From Polyangiaceae bacterium (GTDB lineage: Bacteria > Myxococcota_A > Polyangia > Polyangiales > Polyangiaceae), in contig JAKLKA010000006.1 in NCBI GenBank assembly GCA_023150915.1, positions 1-64,000 on the forward strand: a DNA stretch of 64,000 bases, written 5' to 3'. Both the position numbers and the translations under genes were made by a program. The notes below the pieces were generated by a model. It was not told where the DNA came from. It made no database searches and saw only the letters and a list, made by a program, of their open reading frames with translations. Positions within the stretch are counted from its first letter, which is position 1. The number at the start of each line of letters is the position of its first letter. This document shows positions 1 through 14,198 of the stretch, in pieces.

Positions 1-192
1 TTCGTGGTGCCCGCCGCGCGGCTCGTCATCGAAGTGGACGGCGCGGCTCATCGCGCCCGCGGTGCCGCGGACGCTCGGCGGGACCGCAAGCTTGCGAAGC
101 TCGGCTTCCGCATCCTCCGGTTGGACGCGGACCTTGTCGAGCGTGCGCTGCCGGAGGCGCTCGCGCGAGTGCGGGCGGCGCTAGGTCGGTGA
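1..192 (+). CDS. DUF559-type endonuclease-like domain, 5' end cut by window
   Basis: Only the C-terminal 63 residues are inside the window. The reading frame is open from base 1. The segment LVIEVDGAAHR, then a run of Arg/Asp/Lys, then LGFRILRLDADLV matches the core of the DUF559/Vsr-like nuclease fold, where the Glu and Asp of the first strand are the likely metal ligands. Many such proteins are small stand-alone ORFs of unknown role. The start and any N-terminal domain lie upstream, so the full function cannot be judged. Confidence 0.6.
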   Translation, partial: FVVPAARLVIEVDGAAHRARGAADARRDRKLAKLGFRILRLDADLVERALPEALARVRAALGR

Positions 193-358
193 GCGCCGAT
201 TATCCGGTTCTGCGGCGGCGGGGGCGCGATTGCCGCGAGCAGACCAAGGGATCCCGGGAGGTAGGCGCGCGCCGCACGTCTTCATGCGATTCCGGATAGC
301 GAGGCGCGGGCGGCGGGACTTCGGTAGAATGCTGGTTAGGCGGACCGAGGCGACCTCC

Positions 359-1648
359 GTGAAGACCCTCCGAACCGTTGCCTCCGCGAGCAAACTGTCG
401 CTACTCACTCCAGGTGAGCGCAGCGTCGCAGACGACACGCGCGTGGACCTGCTCGACGTCGCTTCGATTGTCCATGACTACTCCATCCCGGAGGTACGGC
501 CGGCGGACATCCGCCCAATACACGCTTGGACATGCCTCGCAGTCGCAACCATCAAGCGCAACACCAACCTGCGAGACTGGGGCGCCTATGCGTCGTTACA
601 CATGGCGCTGGAGCAGAAGCTCAGCTTCGTTGAGCATCGGCTCCGCGTCCTGAAGTCCAGCCTCGCGCAGGTAACCCCACCAAGTGAGGATTTCGGCGAC
701 TACGACCAAGTCTTCGCGATCATTTCTGACCTGGAATCCTACCTTGCCGCCATCTACAGCACGCTCGAGGTCGTGGCTGCGCTCGTCCGAGAGAAGACTC
801 GGCGTACCCCGAAGTCGTTCAGCAAGCTCGCTACCCAGCATGTGCTCCTCCGGTTCGACCGCTGGCACTGGCTGCAACACTTCTGGGATCTTCGCACCCA
901 GCTCACGCACTACGGCACGCTCTTTCTGTCGCCCGGAGACGGGACGCTCGTTGTTCGATTCTCGCAGTCTGGGACACTTCGCTACTTTCCCAATCAGAGG
1001 GTGGAGATTCCCGTCGCGGACATTCTGGACTACCGCGACCATCTGCTCGATATGCTCGACGAGTGGGCGTTGTCCGAGCTCGACGCCATCGATCCAGACT
1101 GGCCGCATGGCATCTATGTTCGCGACGGACGGTACGCGCGAATGGAATTCGAACCATCGGGAGTGGTCCTCAATGCCGCACGAGCACGGCCACGGAGACC
1201 GCCCCTACTGGTCGGACCAGGACTGAGAGCGTTCGTCGAGTCCGACGAGCTCGTCCAGCGGCTCGACGACTTGTTCGCGATCGCTGGCAGGGGCAAGGTT
1301 GCGCTGCCATCCGCAACTTTCGATTGGCCCGCACGCGCGCTGCGCTCGATCGGCGTCGCCGATGTCGAACAACTGAGGTCACTCCTCACGCGGTACTACC
1401 CGCAGCTAGCCGACCTCGCCGTCATCCACACGCGGGGAGAGGATCTTTCGCCAGTTTGGCCGGGAATTTCTGTTCTTTTCGCCGCGTGCACTGCGGTACA
1501 GCGAGTCGGGACTCCCGAGCACGGTCGTGACTTCGCGCGGCTCTTTGGTGCGCCGCCACCACCGAAGCCAGCAGGCATGCTTGACGTTTTCGATGTCATC
1601 GCGCGACTGTGGCGAACCAAGTGGGCGACTGCCCTCCGCATCGGGTGA
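359..1648 (+). CDS. Hypothetical protein with a HEPN-like R-x4-H motif
   Basis: A protein of about 429 residues that I cannot assign to a named family. I chose the GTG at 359 because a GAGG lies 8 bases upstream and the translation before it looks non-coding. ATG 329 and ATG 230 are alternatives. The first half is helical (LHMALEQKLSFVEHRLRVL and a following long helix), then comes WDLRTQLTHYGTLF, an R-x4-H-Y-G element like the catalytic motif of HEPN RNases and of abortive-infection or toxin proteins. The C-terminal third has no motif I recognise. The attC-like element at 1669 begins 20 bases after the stop, so this may be the first cassette of the array. The HEPN reading is an inference from one motif. 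Confidence 0.6.
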   Translation: MKTLRTVASASKLSLLTPGERSVADDTRVDLLDVASIVHDYSIPEVRPADIRPIHAWTCLAVATIKRNTNLRDWGAYASLHMALEQKLSFVEHRLRVLKSSLAQVTPPSEDFGDYDQVFAIISDLESYLAAIYSTLEVVAALVREKTRRTPKSFSKLATQHVLLRFDRWHWLQHFWDLRTQLTHYGTLFLSPGDGTLVVRFSQSGTLRYFPNQRVEIPVADILDYRDHLLDMLDEWALSELDAIDPDWPHGIYVRDGRYARMEFEPSGVVLNAARARPRRPPLLVGPGLRAFVESDELVQRLDDLFAIAGRGKVALPSATFDWPARALRSIGVADVEQLRSLLTRYYPQLADLAVIHTRGEDLSPVWPGISVLFAACTAVQRVGTPEHGRDFARLFGAPPPPKPAGMLDVFDVIARLWRTKWATALRIG

Positions 1649-1668
1649 TCGGGGAGGTCATGGCTGCC

Positions 1669-1833
1669 GCCTAACTCACGTTCCACCCGCCGAACGCCGG
1701 TCTTGCCGACTTCACCGTCCGTTCCGCGCCCGCGGGCGACCAAATTGATGCGGCACTCGCCCGCGTCTGTCGCGTCTCGCCGACTGACGACTTGACGCTC
1801 GGCGTTCGCGGGTGAACGTGTGTCTCGTTATGC
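1669..1833 (+). repeat. attC-like element 1 (integron cassette recombination site)
   Basis: Outer simple sites GCCTAAC (1669-1675) and GTTATGC (1827-1833) fit the RYYYAAC / GTT-type R boxes, the right one with a single deviation. Inside them the left arm at 1678-1698 pairs with the right arm at 1801-1819. The pairing is perfect except for two extra C residues in the left arm (near 1683 and 1690), which match the extrahelical bases that orient attC sites. The central 100 bases are nearly the same in the copy at 2578-2747. The length of 165 bp is at the long end for attC. Confidence 0.65.
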
Positions 1834-2013
1834 AGCCGGACATTCGGGCTCTCCTTCGTCCGATGAGCACGACGCGCACGCCTGACCCTCCCGTTGCCGA
1901 GCAACTCGCGGCCGCTCAGGTCCACACGCGCGCTCGACCGATCGGCGCCCGAGGTGTAGATCGGGAACTGGTGGCAATTGACGCGCGCCCTTCGCGACCC
2001 AGCCGCCGTGCCC

Positions 2014-2517
2014 ATGTACGACCACACCATGCAGGTGCTCGCAATCATGGCTTTGCCGGCGGCAGCTCTGCTCGGGCCCTCGGCCTGCAAGAGCAAGAAC
2101 GAGCGACATTACTGGGCGGATGTGCCTTACTGCGACTCAGGATCGGGCTTCGCGCAGCCCATTCGCGTCATCCGCGCCTACGGTAACCAGGGAGAGGTGG
2201 TGGCGCTGACGGGGTCGCGACCCGATCAGAGCAGCGTCTACGCGCCCGATGTGACCGTCGCGGTGGTGGCGTGTGCCGATTGGACGTCGCTTGTCGGGCA
2301 GAAGGACCTTGACCGGGTGCGCTCCGCCCTGCTCGCAGGCACCGTGCCTACAGTCTGCCCGGGTGAGCGAGTGATCCTGCCTCCCACGCAGGTGCGTGCC
2401 AGAACCACCAGTCGACGGGGCTACGTTGGTGCGCTGACGTTCCCGAAGGTCGACCCCACCGAGCTTGCGTGCACGCGCGGAGCGCTGGCGTACGGCGAGG
2501 TTGCTGACCAGAAGTGA
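2014..2517 (+). CDS. Small lipoprotein carried between two attC-like elements
   Basis: Predicted export signal MQVLAIMALPAAALLG followed by a lipobox ending PSAC, so a lipoprotein of about 168 residues if ATG 2014 is used. ATG 2029, GTG 2008 and TTG 1978 are also in frame, and no clear ribosome binding site decides between them. The mature part contains two widely spaced Cys residues and no domain I recognise. It lies wholly between the attC-like elements at 1669 and 2578 and in the same orientation, as expected of a cassette gene. The 180 bases between element 1 and this start hold nothing I can identify. Confidence 0.6.
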   Translation: MYDHTMQVLAIMALPAAALLGPSACKSKNERHYWADVPYCDSGSGFAQPIRVIRAYGNQGEVVALTGSRPDQSSVYAPDVTVAVVACADWTSLVGQKDLDRVRSALLAGTVPTVCPGERVILPPTQVRARTTSRRGYVGALTFPKVDPTELACTRGALAYGEVADQK

Positions 2518-2577
2518 CGCGCGCCACCCGAGAATCATTAGAGAGAGTCTCAAGTCCGCCGCGTAGTATCGACCGCT

Positions 2578-2747
2578 GTCTAATTAACTGGACGTTGCAC
2601 CCGCCGAACGCCGGTCTTGCCGACTTCACCGTCCGTCCCGCGTCCGCGGGCGACCAAACTGATGCGGCACTCGCCCGCGTCTGCAGCGCCTTGCCGCCTG
2701 ACGACTTGACGCTCGGCGCTCGCGGGTGAACGTGTGTCTCGTTATAC
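2578..2747 (+). repeat. attC-like element 2
   Basis: Second full copy. Outer sites are GTCTAAT (2578-2584) and GTTATAC (2741-2747). The left arm at 2592-2612 pairs with the right arm at 2715-2733, with two extrahelical bases in the left arm (a G near 2597 and a C near 2604) at the same places as in element 1, and one mismatch. The central part is nearly the same as element 1. The sequence from GTT 1828 to G 2741 would be a 914 bp cassette. Confidence 0.65.
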
Positions 2748-2814
2748 AGCCGCATGGGCGTCGGTTCCGAACTGCTGTGCCGCTGACGAGCTCGCAGACG
2801 ACCCAAGGCGAATC

Positions 2815-4083
2815 TCATAGCGCCGACGGATCGAACAACTCGGCACTATCGCTGGGTGCCCATGCGCCGACCCAGCCGCCGGTCACGAGCACTTTGCCAG
2901 ACGGCAGAAGCGTCGCGGCGTGCGCCGCGCGTTTGACGACCATGTTGCCCGCGGATGACCACGTACCTTGGATGGGATCGTATATCTCCGCTGAAGCCTC
3001 AGGCCCGACGGGACCGTTACCCCCCGCGACCAGCACTCGACCCGACCCGAGTAGCGTGGCGGAAAAGGCGGTTCGGGCGAGGAACATGCTGGCGGTGGTG
3101 GTCCACACACCTTTCGAGGGGTCATACAGTTCGGCGCCGCTCGAGGGAGCGGTCTCGGCGGTGCCGCCCATGATCAGTACTTGACCGTCCTGCAGCAACA
3201 CCGCGCGGTGCCCAGCCCGAGCCGCAGCCAGCGAGCCGGTCGAAACGAATGCTCCCTTCGCAGGATCAAACAGCAAGGCGCTGGCCATCGCCGCGCCACC
3301 CTCGCCCGCGCCGCCCGCGATGAGCACGGAACCGTCACCCAGGGGCGTTGCAGTGAATCCAATGCGTCCGACCGGCAACGGCGAAGTGGTCACCCATCCC
3401 GCGGCAGGCAGAAGGAGTTCGGCGCTCGCTGTCGGCGGCCCCGGCGGAATGGCTGCAATGCCTCCCAACGCGAGCACCGCACCACCCTGGAGCAGCGCGC
3501 ACTCGTGCGACGCGCGTGAGACGTGCATCACCGTCTTCGTTGCAGTCCAGGCGCCTGCTGCAGGATCGAAGACTTCCGCGGACGCTGTGAGTTGTGCCGT
3601 CCACTTGCCAAGCACGGAGAGTCCACCTGCGACCAAGAAGCGCCCGTCCGCCAGCAATGTCGAGCAAGCGTTGCCGTGCGCGCTCGACATGCTCGGCATG
3701 GACGACCAAGCACCGCTCGCTGGGTCGTACGCCGCTGCGGTCACAGATGCGTTGTGCAGACTGTCGATACCTCCCGCCACGACTACTTGGCCTGCAACGA
3801 GTGCCGACGAGTGGTCGGCTTTTCCCTGCGGCATGGTCGCGGCTGCCGACCACGCCGGAGCTGGCACGTCCGCGGCGTCGGCCATCGCGTCGCTCTGCGC
3901 GCCGCCGGCACCGGCGTCCGCCACGTCGACATCCCCGTCGATGGCATTCGCGTCAGTCCCTACTTCTGCAACCGGCGAATCCTTAGCTGCATCGAGAGCA
4001 GGATCCGTCTCCAGTGCCATCTGTCCGCATGCCGTGCCGGCGACTGCGACGACGGCCCCCATGCGGCGTAGCGCGGGCGCCAT
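2815..4083 (-). CDS. Kelch-repeat lipoprotein
   Basis: About 422 residues from ATG 4083. The start MAPALRRMGAVVAVAG with a TACG lipobox predicts a lipoprotein, followed by an Asp/Ala-rich spacer and then tandem Kelch/beta-propeller units. Each unit has a pattern like LLxDGRVLVAGG ... SAEVFDPxxGxW, at least six times, so the protein is probably a surface beta-propeller. It is on the minus strand, opposite to the orientation of the attC-like elements that flank it (2578-2747 on one side and the partial arm at 4138 on the other). Reverse-oriented genes do occur in integron cassettes. Ligand and role are unknown. Confidence 0.8.
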   Translation of the reverse strand: MAPALRRMGAVVAVAGTACGQMALETDPALDAAKDSPVAEVGTDANAIDGDVDVADAGAGGAQSDAMADAADVPAPAWSAAATMPQGKADHSSALVAGQVVVAGGIDSLHNASVTAAAYDPASGAWSSMPSMSSAHGNACSTLLADGRFLVAGGLSVLGKWTAQLTASAEVFDPAAGAWTATKTVMHVSRASHECALLQGGAVLALGGIAAIPPGPPTASAELLLPAAGWVTTSPLPVGRIGFTATPLGDGSVLIAGGAGEGGAAMASALLFDPAKGAFVSTGSLAAARAGHRAVLLQDGQVLIMGGTAETAPSSGAELYDPSKGVWTTTASMFLARTAFSATLLGSGRVLVAGGNGPVGPEASAEIYDPIQGTWSSAGNMVVKRAAHAATLLPSGKVLVTGGWVGAWAPSDSAELFDPSAL

Positions 4084-4137
4084 CTGATAATCATACCGAT
4101 GTGCCGCCCCGTGATCGAGGACGCGCGAGTCCGCGCT

Positions 4138-4168
4138 GTCTAACTCGCCGTCCCACCCGCCGAACGCT
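4138..4168 (+). repeat. attC-like element 3, left arm only
   Basis: GTCTAAC (4138-4144) followed by an arm at 4147-4168 with the core CCACCCGCCGAACGC, the same as in elements 1 and 2. No matching right arm or GTT box is seen before purC ends at 4232, so the element appears truncated. It may mark the broken end of the cassette array against the conserved purC gene. Confidence 0.5.
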
Positions 4169-4231
4169 GCCCACGCCCTCGCCGCCGTCACTGGCTGCCC
4201 GGCTCACCCGTGATCGCGCTCGCCCCCAGCG

Positions 4232-5203
4232 CTACCCCCCAATCCCCAGATTCCTCCGCATCCTCCCGATCGGTTCCTCCAAATTCGGAACGAACGCCTC
4301 ACCGGTCAGCGTCTCCACCGCCTCGATGTAGCGCAGCGTCGCCTCGACCCGGATCTCATCCGGGATCGGCGGGATCGGGCCGTCGCCGGTGAAGCCGCGT
4401 TCGGCTAGCCAGCGGCGTAGGTATTCCTTGTCGAAGCTCTCGGGGTCTTCGCCGGCGGCGAAGCGGGCGGCGTAGGTCGCGCTCTTCCAGTAGCGGGACG
4501 AGTCGGGGGTGTGGATCTCGTCGATCACTACGATGCGGCCGTCGCGCGTCTTGCCGAATTCGTACTTGGTGTCGACCAGGATCAGGCCGCGCTCGGCTGC
4601 GATGCGCTGCCCAGCGGCGAACAGGGCAAGCGCCATGCTCGCGGCGGCGTCGAAGTCGACGGCGGGCATGCCCGAGAGCGCCAGGATCTCGTCGCGGCTG
4701 GCCGAGACGTCGTGGCCGCCCTTGGCGGCCTTGGTGCTGGGCGTGAGGATGGGCTGGGGCAGGCGCTGGTGCTTCTTCAGACCGTCGGGGAGGGCGTGAC
4801 CGCAGAAGGTGCGGGCCCCTTTGTCGTAGTGCACCCAGATGCTGGTCGAGGTCGTGCCAGTCAGGTACGCGCGCACCACCATCTCGACCGGGAGCGGCGT
4901 GCACTCGTGCGCGATGAGCACGTTGGGGTCGGGCACCGCGATCACGTGGTTCTGAGCGACCTCGCGCGTCTTGTCGAACCACCAGGCAGCCACGTGGTTC
5001 AAGAGCTGACCCTTGAGCGGCAGCGTGCCCAGGATGCGGTCGAAGGCGCTGATGCGATCGGTGACCACGATGGTGCGCTTGCCGTCGCGTGTGTAGTTGT
5101 CGCGGACCTTGCCCTCGTACTTCGTCCCGAGCTCGGGGAAGTCGCACTTGTCCAGGGTGTGGCTCAGGGCCCGTTCGATGATCGCTCGGTCGACGCTCGG
5201 CAC
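4232..5203 (-). CDS. purC: Phosphoribosylaminoimidazole-succinocarboxamide synthase
   Basis: Joins aspartate to CAIR with ATP to give SAICAR in de novo purine synthesis. The 323 residues match the long-form enzyme. [10 protein letters not shown] near residue 28 is the nucleotide-binding loop, [12 protein letters not shown] follows, and [13 protein letters not shown] near 105, ILTPSTKA near 150, [11 protein letters not shown] near 206 and [14 protein letters not shown] near 222 are family signatures. The start is GTG 5203. A tandem 12 bp repeat lies only 25 bases upstream of this start, which may affect its 5' untranslated region. The attC-like remnant sits about 60 bases past the stop. Confidence 0.97.
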
Positions 5204-5228
5204 GGCGCGGAAGCTAACACGAACTCGC

Positions 5229-5312
5229 GCCGAGATTCACCGCGAGACTCACGGCGAGATTCACCGCGAGGCTCACGGCGAGATTCGTCGCGACGCTCAC
5301 CGCGAGATTCAT
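5229..5312. repeat. Seven tandem 12 bp units upstream of purC
   Basis: Seven consecutive 12-base units of the type CGCGAGATTCAC, each with one to three changes, at 5229-5240, 5241-5252, 5253-5264 and so on to 5301-5312. The changes fall mainly at base 1 (C or G), at base 7 (A or G) and at the unit ends. The array continues into a weaker run to about 5370. It lies between the purC start and the stop of the next gene. I see no gene on either strand here. Confidence 0.8.
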
Positions 5313-5378
5313 CGCGCGGGACCTACGGCGGGCGCACGGCGAGAGTCGCACGCACGCTCACGCGGCTGTCGACCTGGC

Positions 5379-11148: not shown

Positions 11149-12204
11149 ATGACCCAGTCATGGACTCTGGTCACCGGCGCGTCGGGCTTCGTGGGCTCGC
11201 GCCTGGTTCGTGCCCTGGTCGAGCGCGGTGAGCACGTGAAAGCTCTGGTTCGGCCCGGCTCGAGCCTGCGCCACCTGGCCGATCTGCCCACCGACCGTTG
11301 CAAGCTGGCCTACGGCGACATCACCGTCGAGCACACCGTGTTCCGCGCGCTCGCGAGCTGCAATCGGCTGTACCACGTGGCCAGCAACTTCAAGATGTGG
11401 GACCCCGATCCCGAGACCATCTTGCGCCCGGCCATCGAGGGCACCCGTGCCACGCTGGAAGCGGCCCGGCGCCGCGGCATCGACAAGATCGTGGTGACCA
11501 GCAGCGTGGCGGCCATGGGCTCGACGCGTGCTGCCGAAGAGATGGACGAGAGCCACGCATTCAACCTGCAAGATCCCGAGGCCTACGTGCTGTCCAAGTA
11601 CGAAGCCGAGCGGGTCGCCCTCGAGGCTGCCGACGAGGGTCAGCCGGTGGTGGTCGTCCGACCGTCGGCCATCTACGGGCCCGGCGATTGGAAACCCACG
11701 CCCACGGGGCAGAGCCTCGTGAACTACCTCAAGACGCCGCCCTCGCTGAGCATCCCGGTGACGGACGGCGGGATCAGCGTGGTCGACGTGGACGACGTGG
11801 TCGAAGGCCACATCGGCGCCATGGAGAAGGGCATTGTCGGCGAGACGTACATCCTGGGCGGCGAGAACATCACTTACCACCAGCTGATCGACACCCTGGC
11901 CGACATCACCGGTCTCGCGCTGCCGGGGCGCGTGCTTTCCGAGGGCATGATCGGCCTGGTGGGCAGCTTGATGGAGATGAAAGCCAGCTGGTTCGGCGGC
12001 GATCCGCAGCTCACCCGGAAGCTTGCTCGCGACTACGCCTCCGCCTACGTCTGGGTCACCAGCGAGAAGGCCGAGAGCGCGCTGGGCTATCAGCACCGGC
12101 CGGCGCGGCAGACCCTGGCGCGCGCCGTGCGCTGGTACCTCGAGCGCGGATACGTGCCCGAGAAGGCAGCGCGCCGCGTGCGGTTGGAGCTGCGCACGAC
12201 GTGA
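11149..12204 (+). CDS. NAD-dependent epimerase/dehydratase, HpnA-like
   Basis: 351 residues, an extended short-chain dehydrogenase. The NAD-binding TGASGFVGSRL lies at residues 9-19, the serine element VTSSVAAMGS near 118 and the catalytic Tyr-x3-Lys as YVLSK near 145. VVRPSAIYGPGDW near 175 is a further family motif. The general pattern (reductase of a sugar or steroid-like substrate, KMWDPDPE after HVASNF) resembles the hopanoid-associated HpnA group. No hopanoid genes lie nearby, so the substrate is open. Its stop overlaps the GTG of the following membrane protein, so the two are likely cotranscribed. Confidence 0.85.
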   Translation: MTQSWTLVTGASGFVGSRLVRALVERGEHVKALVRPGSSLRHLADLPTDRCKLAYGDITVEHTVFRALASCNRLYHVASNFKMWDPDPETILRPAIEGTRATLEAARRRGIDKIVVTSSVAAMGSTRAAEEMDESHAFNLQDPEAYVLSKYEAERVALEAADEGQPVVVVRPSAIYGPGDWKPTPTGQSLVNYLKTPPSLSIPVTDGGISVVDVDDVVEGHIGAMEKGIVGETYILGGENITYHQLIDTLADITGLALPGRVLSEGMIGLVGSLMEMKASWFGGDPQLTRKLARDYASAYVWVTSEKAESALGYQHRPARQTLARAVRWYLERGYVPEKAARRVRLELRTT

Positions 12205-12902
12205 GCGCCGCCCGCTCGCCGGCCTCGGGCGGCTACGCGTTGGCGGTTGCCACGCTCGGCTCTGCCGTGATCGTGATCCCCGCCGCGCTGCGCGCGGCCA
12301 CCGGCGGCGCCGGCCTGGCCATGGCCTGGCTGGCCTTGTGGGGCTCCGCCGCGCTGATGATCGCGCCGGTGGCGGGCGCCTGTCGCGTGGCGCGTCCGCT
12401 CTCGCCGTTCGCCTTCAGCCTTCCGCTGGGCCTGGCGCTCGCGCTCGGGCCGTTGATGGTGTTCGCGCGCGTGCTGAAGACGGCCACGCACCATCGCCCG
12501 CTGGGTGGCGCGACTTTCGCACTCGTGGCTGCCATCCTGGTCCTGAGTGCCACGGCGTTCTCCGCCCGGGTGATCGCCTGGTCTCGGGGGCGCGGCGGCG
12601 CGCTGTGCAAGCTGCCTCACGGCCTTGCCGCGCTCGGCCTTGCCCTGGGCGCGGTGCTTGCGCTGCCGGCGCTGAGCAGCGCGCTTCGTAGCTCGCTCTT
12701 CGACGGCGTGCTGGGCGTGGCGGTGGTCGCGGCCGCCGCCTGGGCGCCCGAGAAGTGGGCGCTGGGCCGCGTGGGCTGGGTGCTCTGGTTGGTGGTGGTG
12801 GCTGCGGGCCTGGGTCTGGGTCTGTCGGCGCCCACCACGAAGAGCGCGCTTGCCGAGCATGCGCCGGTGCTGCTCGGACTGTCAGGGTGGCTGCGGCCCT
12901 GA
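12201..12902 (+). CDS. Multi-pass membrane protein of unknown function
   Basis: 233 residues from GTG 12201, overlapping the stop of the epimerase by four bases (GTGA). There are about seven hydrophobic segments, among them ALAVATLGSAVIVIPAAL, FALVAAILVLSATAFSARVI and GWVLWLVVVAAGLGLGLS. I see no catalytic motif and do not recognise the family. The coupling suggests a job linked to the epimerase, for example in envelope lipid or sugar metabolism. Confidence 0.75.
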   Translation: MSAARSPASGGYALAVATLGSAVIVIPAALRAATGGAGLAMAWLALWGSAALMIAPVAGACRVARPLSPFAFSLPLGLALALGPLMVFARVLKTATHHRPLGGATFALVAAILVLSATAFSARVIAWSRGRGGALCKLPHGLAALGLALGAVLALPALSSALRSSLFDGVLGVAVVAAAAWAPEKWALGRVGWVLWLVVVAAGLGLGLSAPTTKSALAEHAPVLLGLSGWLRP

Positions 12903-12947
12903 GCGTCCGTTGACGGAGTGGGGCCTGGCCCTTACCTTCAGCGGACC

Positions 12948-14198
12948 ATGGGCGCTTCGCGCGTCGGCTTCGTCCTCATCCGTCGGCTCGCGCTCTTCAT
13001 CGCGTTCTTGTTCGCGCTGAGCGGGGCCGCGCCTGCCGCTGCGCAGCCGCCGCCCGCGGGCACTCCGGTACGGATCGGCGTCACGGCCGCCACGCCCCCC
13101 GCGCCCGAGCCCGAGCGCGCGGGCCCCGACGCCGAGGCCCACGCGCCCCCGGCCGACGCGCCCCGCGTCGACGCCAAGCTCGCGATTCCGCCCCCGCCGG
13201 CCGGTTTCAACGTCCACGACGGCGGCTGGATCAAGTTCGCTTACGAGCCCGGCCTGCGCGAGCGGGTGCAACCGTTGATCACGCAAGCCGACGCCGCCCG
13301 CGCCGATCTGGTGCGGCGGTTCGGTCGGCCGGTGCTCAGCAAGGTCACGGTCTACGTTGCGCGCACCCCTGGCGAGATGGCGAGCCTGGCTCCCGAGGGC
13401 GCGCCCTTCCCGCGCTATGCCGCCGGCGTCGCCTATTCGGACATCGGCTACGTCCTCTTGACCATCCATCCGGTGGACGTCAACGCGCGGCACGATCTGG
13501 GTGAGGTCTTCCGGCACGAGCTGGCCCATGTGGCGCTCCACGACGCGGTCGATGGGCGCTCGGTTCCGCGCTGGTTCAACGAGGGCGTGGCGGTGTTCGT
13601 CTCGGGCGAGGGCTCGGTGACGCGCCTTCAGACGCTGTGGACTGCCACGGTCGCCGGCGAGCTCTTGCCGCTGGGCCGGCTCGAGAAGACGTTCCCCACC
13701 GACGCGCTCGGTGTCTCGGTGGCATACGCCCAGGCGGCCGACATCGTGCGGTTCTTGATCCGGCGTGAAGACCAGCAACGCTTCATCGGCCTGCTCGAGC
13801 GGGTCCGAAAGGGGCACGAGTTCGAGCGGGCCCTGAACGACGCCTATGGCGTGGACCTGGCGACCCTCGAGTTCGAGTGGCGGCAAGACGTGTCGAAGCG
13901 TTACACCTTCTGGCCCGCGCTGTTCAGCGGCTCGGTGATCTGGGCGGGCGCCATTGGCCTGTTCATCTGGGGCTGGCGGCGCCGGAAGAAGCGCGCAGAG
14001 CGCACGCTCGAACGCTGGGGTCGCGAAGAGGCGGCAGAAGACGAGCTGCGTCGCCGCCTGCGCGAGGCCGAGGCGGGCCGGGTGCGCATCGTGTTCGCGC
14101 GCGAGCCCCGGCAAGAGGTGGTCGAGATGAAGCCACCCATCGAAGACGCCGAGGTGCCGCGCGTGGAGCACGACGGCAGCTGGCACACGCTGCACTGA
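12948..14198 (+). CDS. Peptidase MA-like (HExxH) membrane-anchored protein
   Basis: 416 residues from ATG 12948. A hydrophobic N-terminal signal (LALFIAFLFALSG) ends near AAAQ, followed by a Pro/Ala-rich spacer. The zinc site FRHELAHVALHD near residue 190 and the downstream WFNEGVAVFVSGE, where the Glu is the third ligand, are the marks of the MA-like family (PF13485). A C-terminal transmembrane segment (VIWAGAIGLFIWGW) precedes a charged cytoplasmic tail. Likely a periplasmic zinc peptidase anchored to the membrane. It converges on the chorismate mutase gene with one base between them. Confidence 0.85.
   Translation: MGASRVGFVLIRRLALFIAFLFALSGAAPAAAQPPPAGTPVRIGVTAATPPAPEPERAGPDAEAHAPPADAPRVDAKLAIPPPPAGFNVHDGGWIKFAYEPGLRERVQPLITQADAARADLVRRFGRPVLSKVTVYVARTPGEMASLAPEGAPFPRYAAGVAYSDIGYVLLTIHPVDVNARHDLGEVFRHELAHVALHDAVDGRSVPRWFNEGVAVFVSGEGSVTRLQTLWTATVAGELLPLGRLEKTFPTDALGVSVAYAQAADIVRFLIRREDQQRFIGLLERVRKGHEFERALNDAYGVDLATLEFEWRQDVSKRYTFWPALFSGSVIWAGAIGLFIWGWRRRKKRAERTLERWGREEAAEDELRRRLREAEAGRVRIVFAREPRQEVVEMKPPIEDAEVPRVEHDGSWHTLH

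Follow-up and report, generated by a model that had tools for sequence, protein, structure and literature searches.

Attachment sites beside purC in a myxobacterium: evidence for a satellite array of a chromosomal integron

Background

The left end of a 64,000-nucleotide stretch of DNA from a bacterium of the family Polyangiaceae (the whole of which is here called the window) contains long, mutually similar elements that lie between unrelated genes. In a first-pass annotation, made from the letters of the sequence, these elements were read as attC sites, and the region as a small gene cassette array without an integrase in a myxobacterium. The locus thus raises two questions: 1) whether the elements are genuine attC sites or some other kind of repeat; and 2) if they are attC sites, whether the array is an orphan or belongs to an integron whose integrase is encoded elsewhere in the genome.

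The host assembly comprises 8.0 Mb in 295 contigs and is 98.8% complete; the window contig is termed C116. The myxobacterial nature of the host is borne out by 66 MYXO-CTERM protein matches, against none in any of 14 control genomes. The window contig is not a mis-binned stray, since its purC gene is single copy and has orthologs with 89-93% identity in both available genomes of the same genus (G001 and G002); with both purC and its flank orthologous to these genomes, contamination of the bin was ruled out for this contig.

Results and discussion

Elements and cassettes of the window

When the sequence was re-read, the two full elements and the additional left arm were found where they had first been described. 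The region comprises the following features, with cassette bounds placed at the G/TT points of the sites:

1-192, plus strand: 3' part of a DUF559 (endonuclease-like) gene, cut at the contig end (PF04480, C116:1-177; 94% identity with C148:6534-6702)
324-341, plus strand: attI-like site, GTAGAATGCTG/GTTAGGC, read as GTAGAATGCTGG/TTAGGC, from alignment with the attI of three species
336-1827, plus strand: gene cassette 1, 1492 bp, bounds from G/TT points
359-1648, plus strand: cassette-1 gene, GTG start, 429 aa, no Pfam or NCBIfam family
1669-1833, plus strand: attC 1, R'' GCCTAAC at 1669-1675, R' GTTATGC at 1827-1833; 184 bits with covariance model R1 (site in the training set), fold and alignment
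1828-2741, plus strand: gene cassette 2, 914 bp, between the G/TT boundaries of attC 1 and attC 2
2029-2517, plus strand: cassette-2 gene, small putative lipoprotein with a lipobox-like LGPSAC read from the sequence, no Pfam family
2582-2747, plus strand: attC 2, R'' AATTAAC (altered) at 2582-2588, R' GTTATAC at 2741-2747; 178.5 bits with R1 (site in the training set), fold
2742-4167, plus strand: gene cassette 3, starting at the G/TT of attC 2; of its own attC only the left arm remains
2815-4083, minus strand: cassette-3 gene, Kelch-repeat protein, antisense to the array (PF01344, E 1.1e-32)
4138-4167, plus strand: truncated attC 3, R'' GTCTAAC and left arm; repeat search, BLAST 89% over 28 bp
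4232-5203, minus strand: purC, SAICAR synthase, named by reading the protein; chromosomal right flank of the array

Identity between the two full copies is 93% across 161 bp, and in both R'' ends in AAC and R' begins with GTT. GTCTAAT at 2578 had initially been taken as the R'' box of the second copy; alignment with ten other copies rules this out and assigns the role to AATTAAC at 2582-2588, so that the second element runs from 2582 to 2747. Folding of the bottom strand, which the first-pass annotation had proposed as a check, gave a clear result for copy 1, which folds better than all 200 dinucleotide shuffles on the bottom strand (z -4.0) and likewise on the top strand (z -4.3), and a less striking one for copy 2 (bottom strand z -2.3, with 5 of 200 shuffles equally good).

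An attC family confined to arrays

The 8-Mb genome holds about 19 copies of the element, all within four contigs (C116, C148, C217 and C114). In searches of the whole assembly these contigs carry all strong BLAST matches, which lie on one strand and mostly at spacings of 0.4-2 kb, as well as all 19 sites recovered at E < 0.001 by a covariance model, R1, which was built from 11 copies and used in place of the attC model of IntegronFinder. By both searches each array has a single orientation in every case, and neither search found copies outside the arrays. A genome-wide scatter of copies, of the kind that would have spoken against a cassette array, is thus not seen: as all BLAST and R1 sites lie on these four contigs, the element is not an interspersed repeat. 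This alternative and that of an Rfam RNA were ruled out by the lack of copies elsewhere in the 8 Mb and of any Rfam match.

The arms of the element fold into a 29-pair structure, in which 92.7% of the cells of an 11-site alignment are standard pairs, as against 33-43% with one arm slid by 1-3 columns; 6 pairs show changes on both sides. Across 150 sites (142 distinct) from three species of the genus, in an alignment that was fitted to the covariance model and hence leans toward the structure, 98.1% are paired, a share that drops to 31-45% on sliding, and 141 cells are changed on both sides. The R'' arm bears two unpaired bases at a distance of seven pairs, which are conserved on this arm only: one is G in 149 of the 150 sites and the other is always a single base, namely C, G or A. 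The two extra left-arm bases first noticed in the window copies are, therefore, real and conserved. In attC sites such extrahelical bases of one arm direct the choice of strand (PMC2727003); the asymmetry found here is the same, with G and C/G as the extra bases in place of the G and T that are usual.

Among the 150 sites R'' ends in AAC in 137 and R' begins with GTT in 145. The strict 7-base consensus RYYYAAC/GTTRRRY is matched by R'' in 42 and by R' in 30 sites, a systematic deviation (GTTATNC) that is shared by the attI of the genus; the relaxed R' box GTTATNC is the commonest type, and nearly all sites are 155-170 bp long. The relaxed right box and the length of 165-170 bp had been held to be the weak points of the attC reading, and both turn out to be ordinary for this system.

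Cassette boundaries retain a recombination signature

In a circular cassette the R'' box faces TTRRRY, and after insertion TTRRRY constitutes the cassette start, behind the G of the previous site. As R'' faces the start of the inserted cassette, the R'' of site n is expected to agree more closely with the R' of site n-1 than with its own. In 116 cassettes R'' matches the R' at its own cassette start in 3.41 of 4 variable positions on average (54 exact matches), as against 2.96 of 4 (21 exact) for the R' of its own attC. Permutation of the R''/start matching gave a mean of 2.82 and a maximum of 3.02, with none of 10,000 permutations reaching the observed value. The 116 cassettes include some near-duplicates, and among 63 unique triplets the two means are 3.30 and 2.84. 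As judged from sequence, this complementarity points decisively to G/TT cassette recombination, of which it would be the fingerprint. In the window, R'' of attC 1 (GCCTAAC) and the start of cassette 1 (GTTAGGC, 335-341) are exact reverse complements, and the R''/start match is imperfect in cassettes 2 and 3. Hence the original proposal gains support on both counts: the attC identity from a structure with covariation together with the R''/start complementarity, and the cassette array from G/TT boundaries together with the same complementarity.

An integrase gene and its attI on another contig

The proposal of an array without integrase stands for the window, whose contig has no match to intI, but fails for the genome, in which intI lies on contig C12 (151-1344, minus strand), with an attI core common to the array head. 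This gene scores 441 bits with TIGR02249 (cut-off 265) and is the only one in the genome over the cut-off. Its product aligns end to end with Vibrio cholerae IntI4 (2a3v), through the integron-specific insertion and the catalytic motifs, and a 40-residue stretch of it falls between the two separate pieces that align with the Xer protein XerA. Further intI-like matches on C24, C130, C20 and other contigs were dismissed; they score under the cut-off and those on C24 and C20 skip the integron-insertion stretch, for which reasons they were taken to be of Xer or phage type. In the integrase phylogeny the three sequences of the genus form one supported clade, with weak forks deeper in the tree.

The core GGTAGAATGnnAGTTATnCAG is conserved 3' of intI in three species and is partly common to the window site; it would by its sequence serve as attI. 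Genes reading as pntAB lie upstream of intI on C12, and the contig ends 150 bp 3' of intI. Between intI and the pntB-like gene there are about a dozen near-perfect tandem 23-bp GC-rich units (1374-1655; L051), which presumably sit in the intI promoter region.

The integron in related genomes

Of 38 relatives searched, only G001 and G002, the two of the same genus, contain this attC type. Integrase homologs with E < 1e-40, some with stop codons, occur in both of them and in five further genomes of the family. In the near-complete G001 (5 contigs), intI (C1:667750-668886) is followed by attI and then by a main array that spans 60 kb and holds at least 76 attC, its cassettes having a median length of 561 bp; from this order, intI is transcribed toward the array. 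The array is thus contiguous with intI in G001, whereas in the host genome intI and the arrays are on separate contigs. Additional arrays are present at four places in G001 (C3:468-493 kb, C1:3.42-3.44 Mb and two on C2), and its purC, 41 kb from intI, has no adjoining array. At C3:465-485 kb (L168) several near-identical attC follow each other at steps of about 523 bp, which suggests a tandemly duplicated cassette.

An attI-like site at the head of the window array

The first-pass annotation overlooked the head of the array, which lies at 324-341 in the form of an attI-like site; the attI core is copied there and already carries a cassette. The left half of the site matches the intI-adjacent attI, and the right half, GTTAGGC, is contributed by the first cassette as its R' half-site. 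Recombination of attI x attC should leave just this arrangement, and the site would have acquired the cassette in that way. The crossover is predicted to fall between G335 and T336, and TAGAAT within the site may be a -10 box. The sequence GTAGAATGCTNGTTA occurs four times in the 8 Mb, always in an integron context: next to intI, at window 324-338, at C148:6782 and, with one mismatch to the three exact copies, at C114:109419; its reversed pattern does not occur in the genome.

The array copies of this site come after a DUF559 gene or fragment thereof. Remnants of attI of at least about 14 nt that end at G/TT within arrays number three in the host genome (one with a mismatch), and G002 has three clear ones besides further degenerate ones. 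In G002 the unit tail CTCCGAGGGATAATG occurs seven times with at most one mismatch, on array contigs only, followed by an intact AGTTA core in three cases and by degenerate versions in others. Successive units of DUF559 and attI-like site are separated by what is left of a purC 3' end and by a common piece of about 340 bp; these are what precedes DUF559, with no clean cassette boundary. The recurrent unit of purC 3' remnant, 340-bp piece, DUF559 and attI-like site was observed at window 1-341, C148:5925-6796 and C114:109043-109433, and in the G002 arrays on C61, C66, C110, C123 and C215. At the purC locus of G001 the purC remnant, the 340-bp piece and DUF559 are present and there are no cassettes.

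The DUF559 and attI-like unit, present in arrays of two species, has apparently been repeated in tandem at the purC locus. We infer that the array arose beside purC in the host species and in G002 and that the unit was repeated in tandem afterwards, a spread along the locus that could have proceeded by duplication via the repeated purC 3' ends. More tentatively, and with doubt prevailing over conviction, the unit might be a secondary capture platform with its own promoter, where IntI acting in trans would load cassettes at scattered and purC-tandem attI copies, making this a multi-headed integron.

Satellite array, severed array or orphan

Taken together, the window elements are very probably genuine attC sites that belong to a sedentary chromosomal integron of this myxobacterial genus, with the window containing a satellite array at purC. 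Such a satellite would consist of a DUF559 gene, an attI-like site, two intact cassettes and a third whose attC was cut at the purC junction. The C12 integrase, if active as its sequence implies, would take the bottom strand of attC in its folded form and recombine it, by an exchange between G and TT, with attI or a further attC, such that cassettes circularize and reinsert, and would act on the window array in trans. That the array recombines and is expressed is what these features would lead one to expect. Weighing against this reading are the location of intI and the window array on different contigs, the small share of sites that follow the 7-base consensus strictly, the uncommon pair of extra bases and the altered R'' of attC 2.

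An unlikely competitor holds that there is no satellite, and that the window array is the distal end of one long C12 array broken by the assembler at near-identical attC. C12, C116 and C217 all break off within integron sequence, the division of integrons into In0 and CALIN parts is a known effect of draft assembly (PMC9024848), and G001 does have a single 60-kb array beside intI. Against this, the right flanks of the arrays differ and are of two kinds at least (purC on C116, mglAB-like genes on C217); the C114 and C148 arrays have apparently non-cassette DNA at both sides; the near-complete G001 has arrays at the four further places and an arrayless purC 41 kb from intI; and the window array starts at its own attI-like site after DUF559 rather than in mid-array. 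Either way, the window array is a satellite of the chromosomal integron or a part of it severed by draft assembly, rather than an orphan, given that the genome encodes intI with an attI core common to the array head. The reading as a dead remnant of a lost integron, an orphan CALIN served by no integrase, would explain the truncation of attC 3, the altered R'' of attC 2 and the IS66-type insertion in an attC on C148, but it has to contend with a full-length intI, with several host attC that are intact and near-identical (up to 98.8%), and with the exact R''/start complementarity retained by cassette 1, and we consider it very improbable. Least credible by far, to the point of being negligible, is an ordinary interspersed repeat or RNA hairpin (REP-like or a terminator) with no relation to integrons: the sequence is indeed repeated and forms a strong hairpin on both strands, yet its restriction to arrays and lack of an Rfam counterpart, the conserved unpaired bases on a single arm, the R''/start complementarity and the presence of intI and the attI core in the same genome all contradict it.

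Relationship to known integrons

The system identified as a chromosomal integron shares with the VCR-type superintegrons of Vibrio an intI, an attI, toxin-antitoxin cassettes, a majority of unknown cassette genes, and an array that is long and made up of small cassettes whose attC are nearly uniform. It differs from them in that intI points toward the array, several satellite arrays exist per genome, the attC has a stem of about 20 bp and a central part of about 100 bp, and R' is mostly GTTATNC. In the chromosomal integrons of Treponema intI is transcribed toward attI and the array (PMC3607928), and in archaeal integrons attI is downstream of intI (PMC9668308); the orientation of intI seen in Treponema, and an attI just downstream of intI, recur here, though in a different phylum and with attI-like copies heading other arrays too. 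The window attI-like site resembles in sequence the delta-attI sites of mobile integrons. Short attI remnants in arrays of class 1 and class 2 integrons have been shown to recombine (PMC12901181); as in these, the remnant ends at G/TT within an array, whereas here it is chromosomal, follows a DUF559 gene in two species and belongs to a unit apparently tandem at purC. Thus, the integron itself is of a known type, and the repeated DUF559 and attI-like heads set it apart as a variant.

With two full attC 0.9 kb apart, the window contig falls under the definition of a CALIN (two or more attC within 4 kb, with intI absent from the vicinity); in contrast to that definition, the cluster begins at a copy of the attI core and the genome has an intI. 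The origins proposed for CALINs include insertion in trans by an IntI encoded elsewhere (IntegronFinder; PMC9024848, PMC8618304), and as the window array bears an attI core at its head, it provides a sequence-level case for seeding of this kind. The copy at the head site hints that arrays for gene capture can start at a distance from the integrase. Should the attI copies be functional, cassettes could be expressed at more places than the front of a single array, a point relevant to how extensive and largely silent pools of cassettes find expression and are maintained; and if the multi-headed reading is true, one integron would have many expressed "first positions" instead of one.

Our literature search found only scattered reports of integrons in Myxococcota and no report under the term "inverted integron". 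Integron integrases from this phylum were noted in a study of sul4 (PMC12772301); those lie beside a sul4 module, whereas the present case, also from Myxococcota, is a chromosomal superintegron with satellite arrays. A myxobacterial genus thereby gains a superintegron with uniform and structurally clear attC.

Cassette content and neighboring repeats

For most of the cassette-array genes tested, the assignment to a family was weak or lacking; among the products encoded in the arrays of the host genome are toxins of the PemK and PIN-domain types, as well as an Unstab_antitox protein. On C148 (L047) an attC is split at 11285-13894 by an insertion that holds an IS66 family transposase gene, the halves of the site lying at 11285-11393 and about 13804-13894, and a 478-bp direct repeat with 97% identity (130-607 and 4086-4553) is located to the left of the C148 array. 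In the window, 12-bp repeats (CTCACGGCGAGA and variants) occupy positions 5224-5320, upstream of purC.
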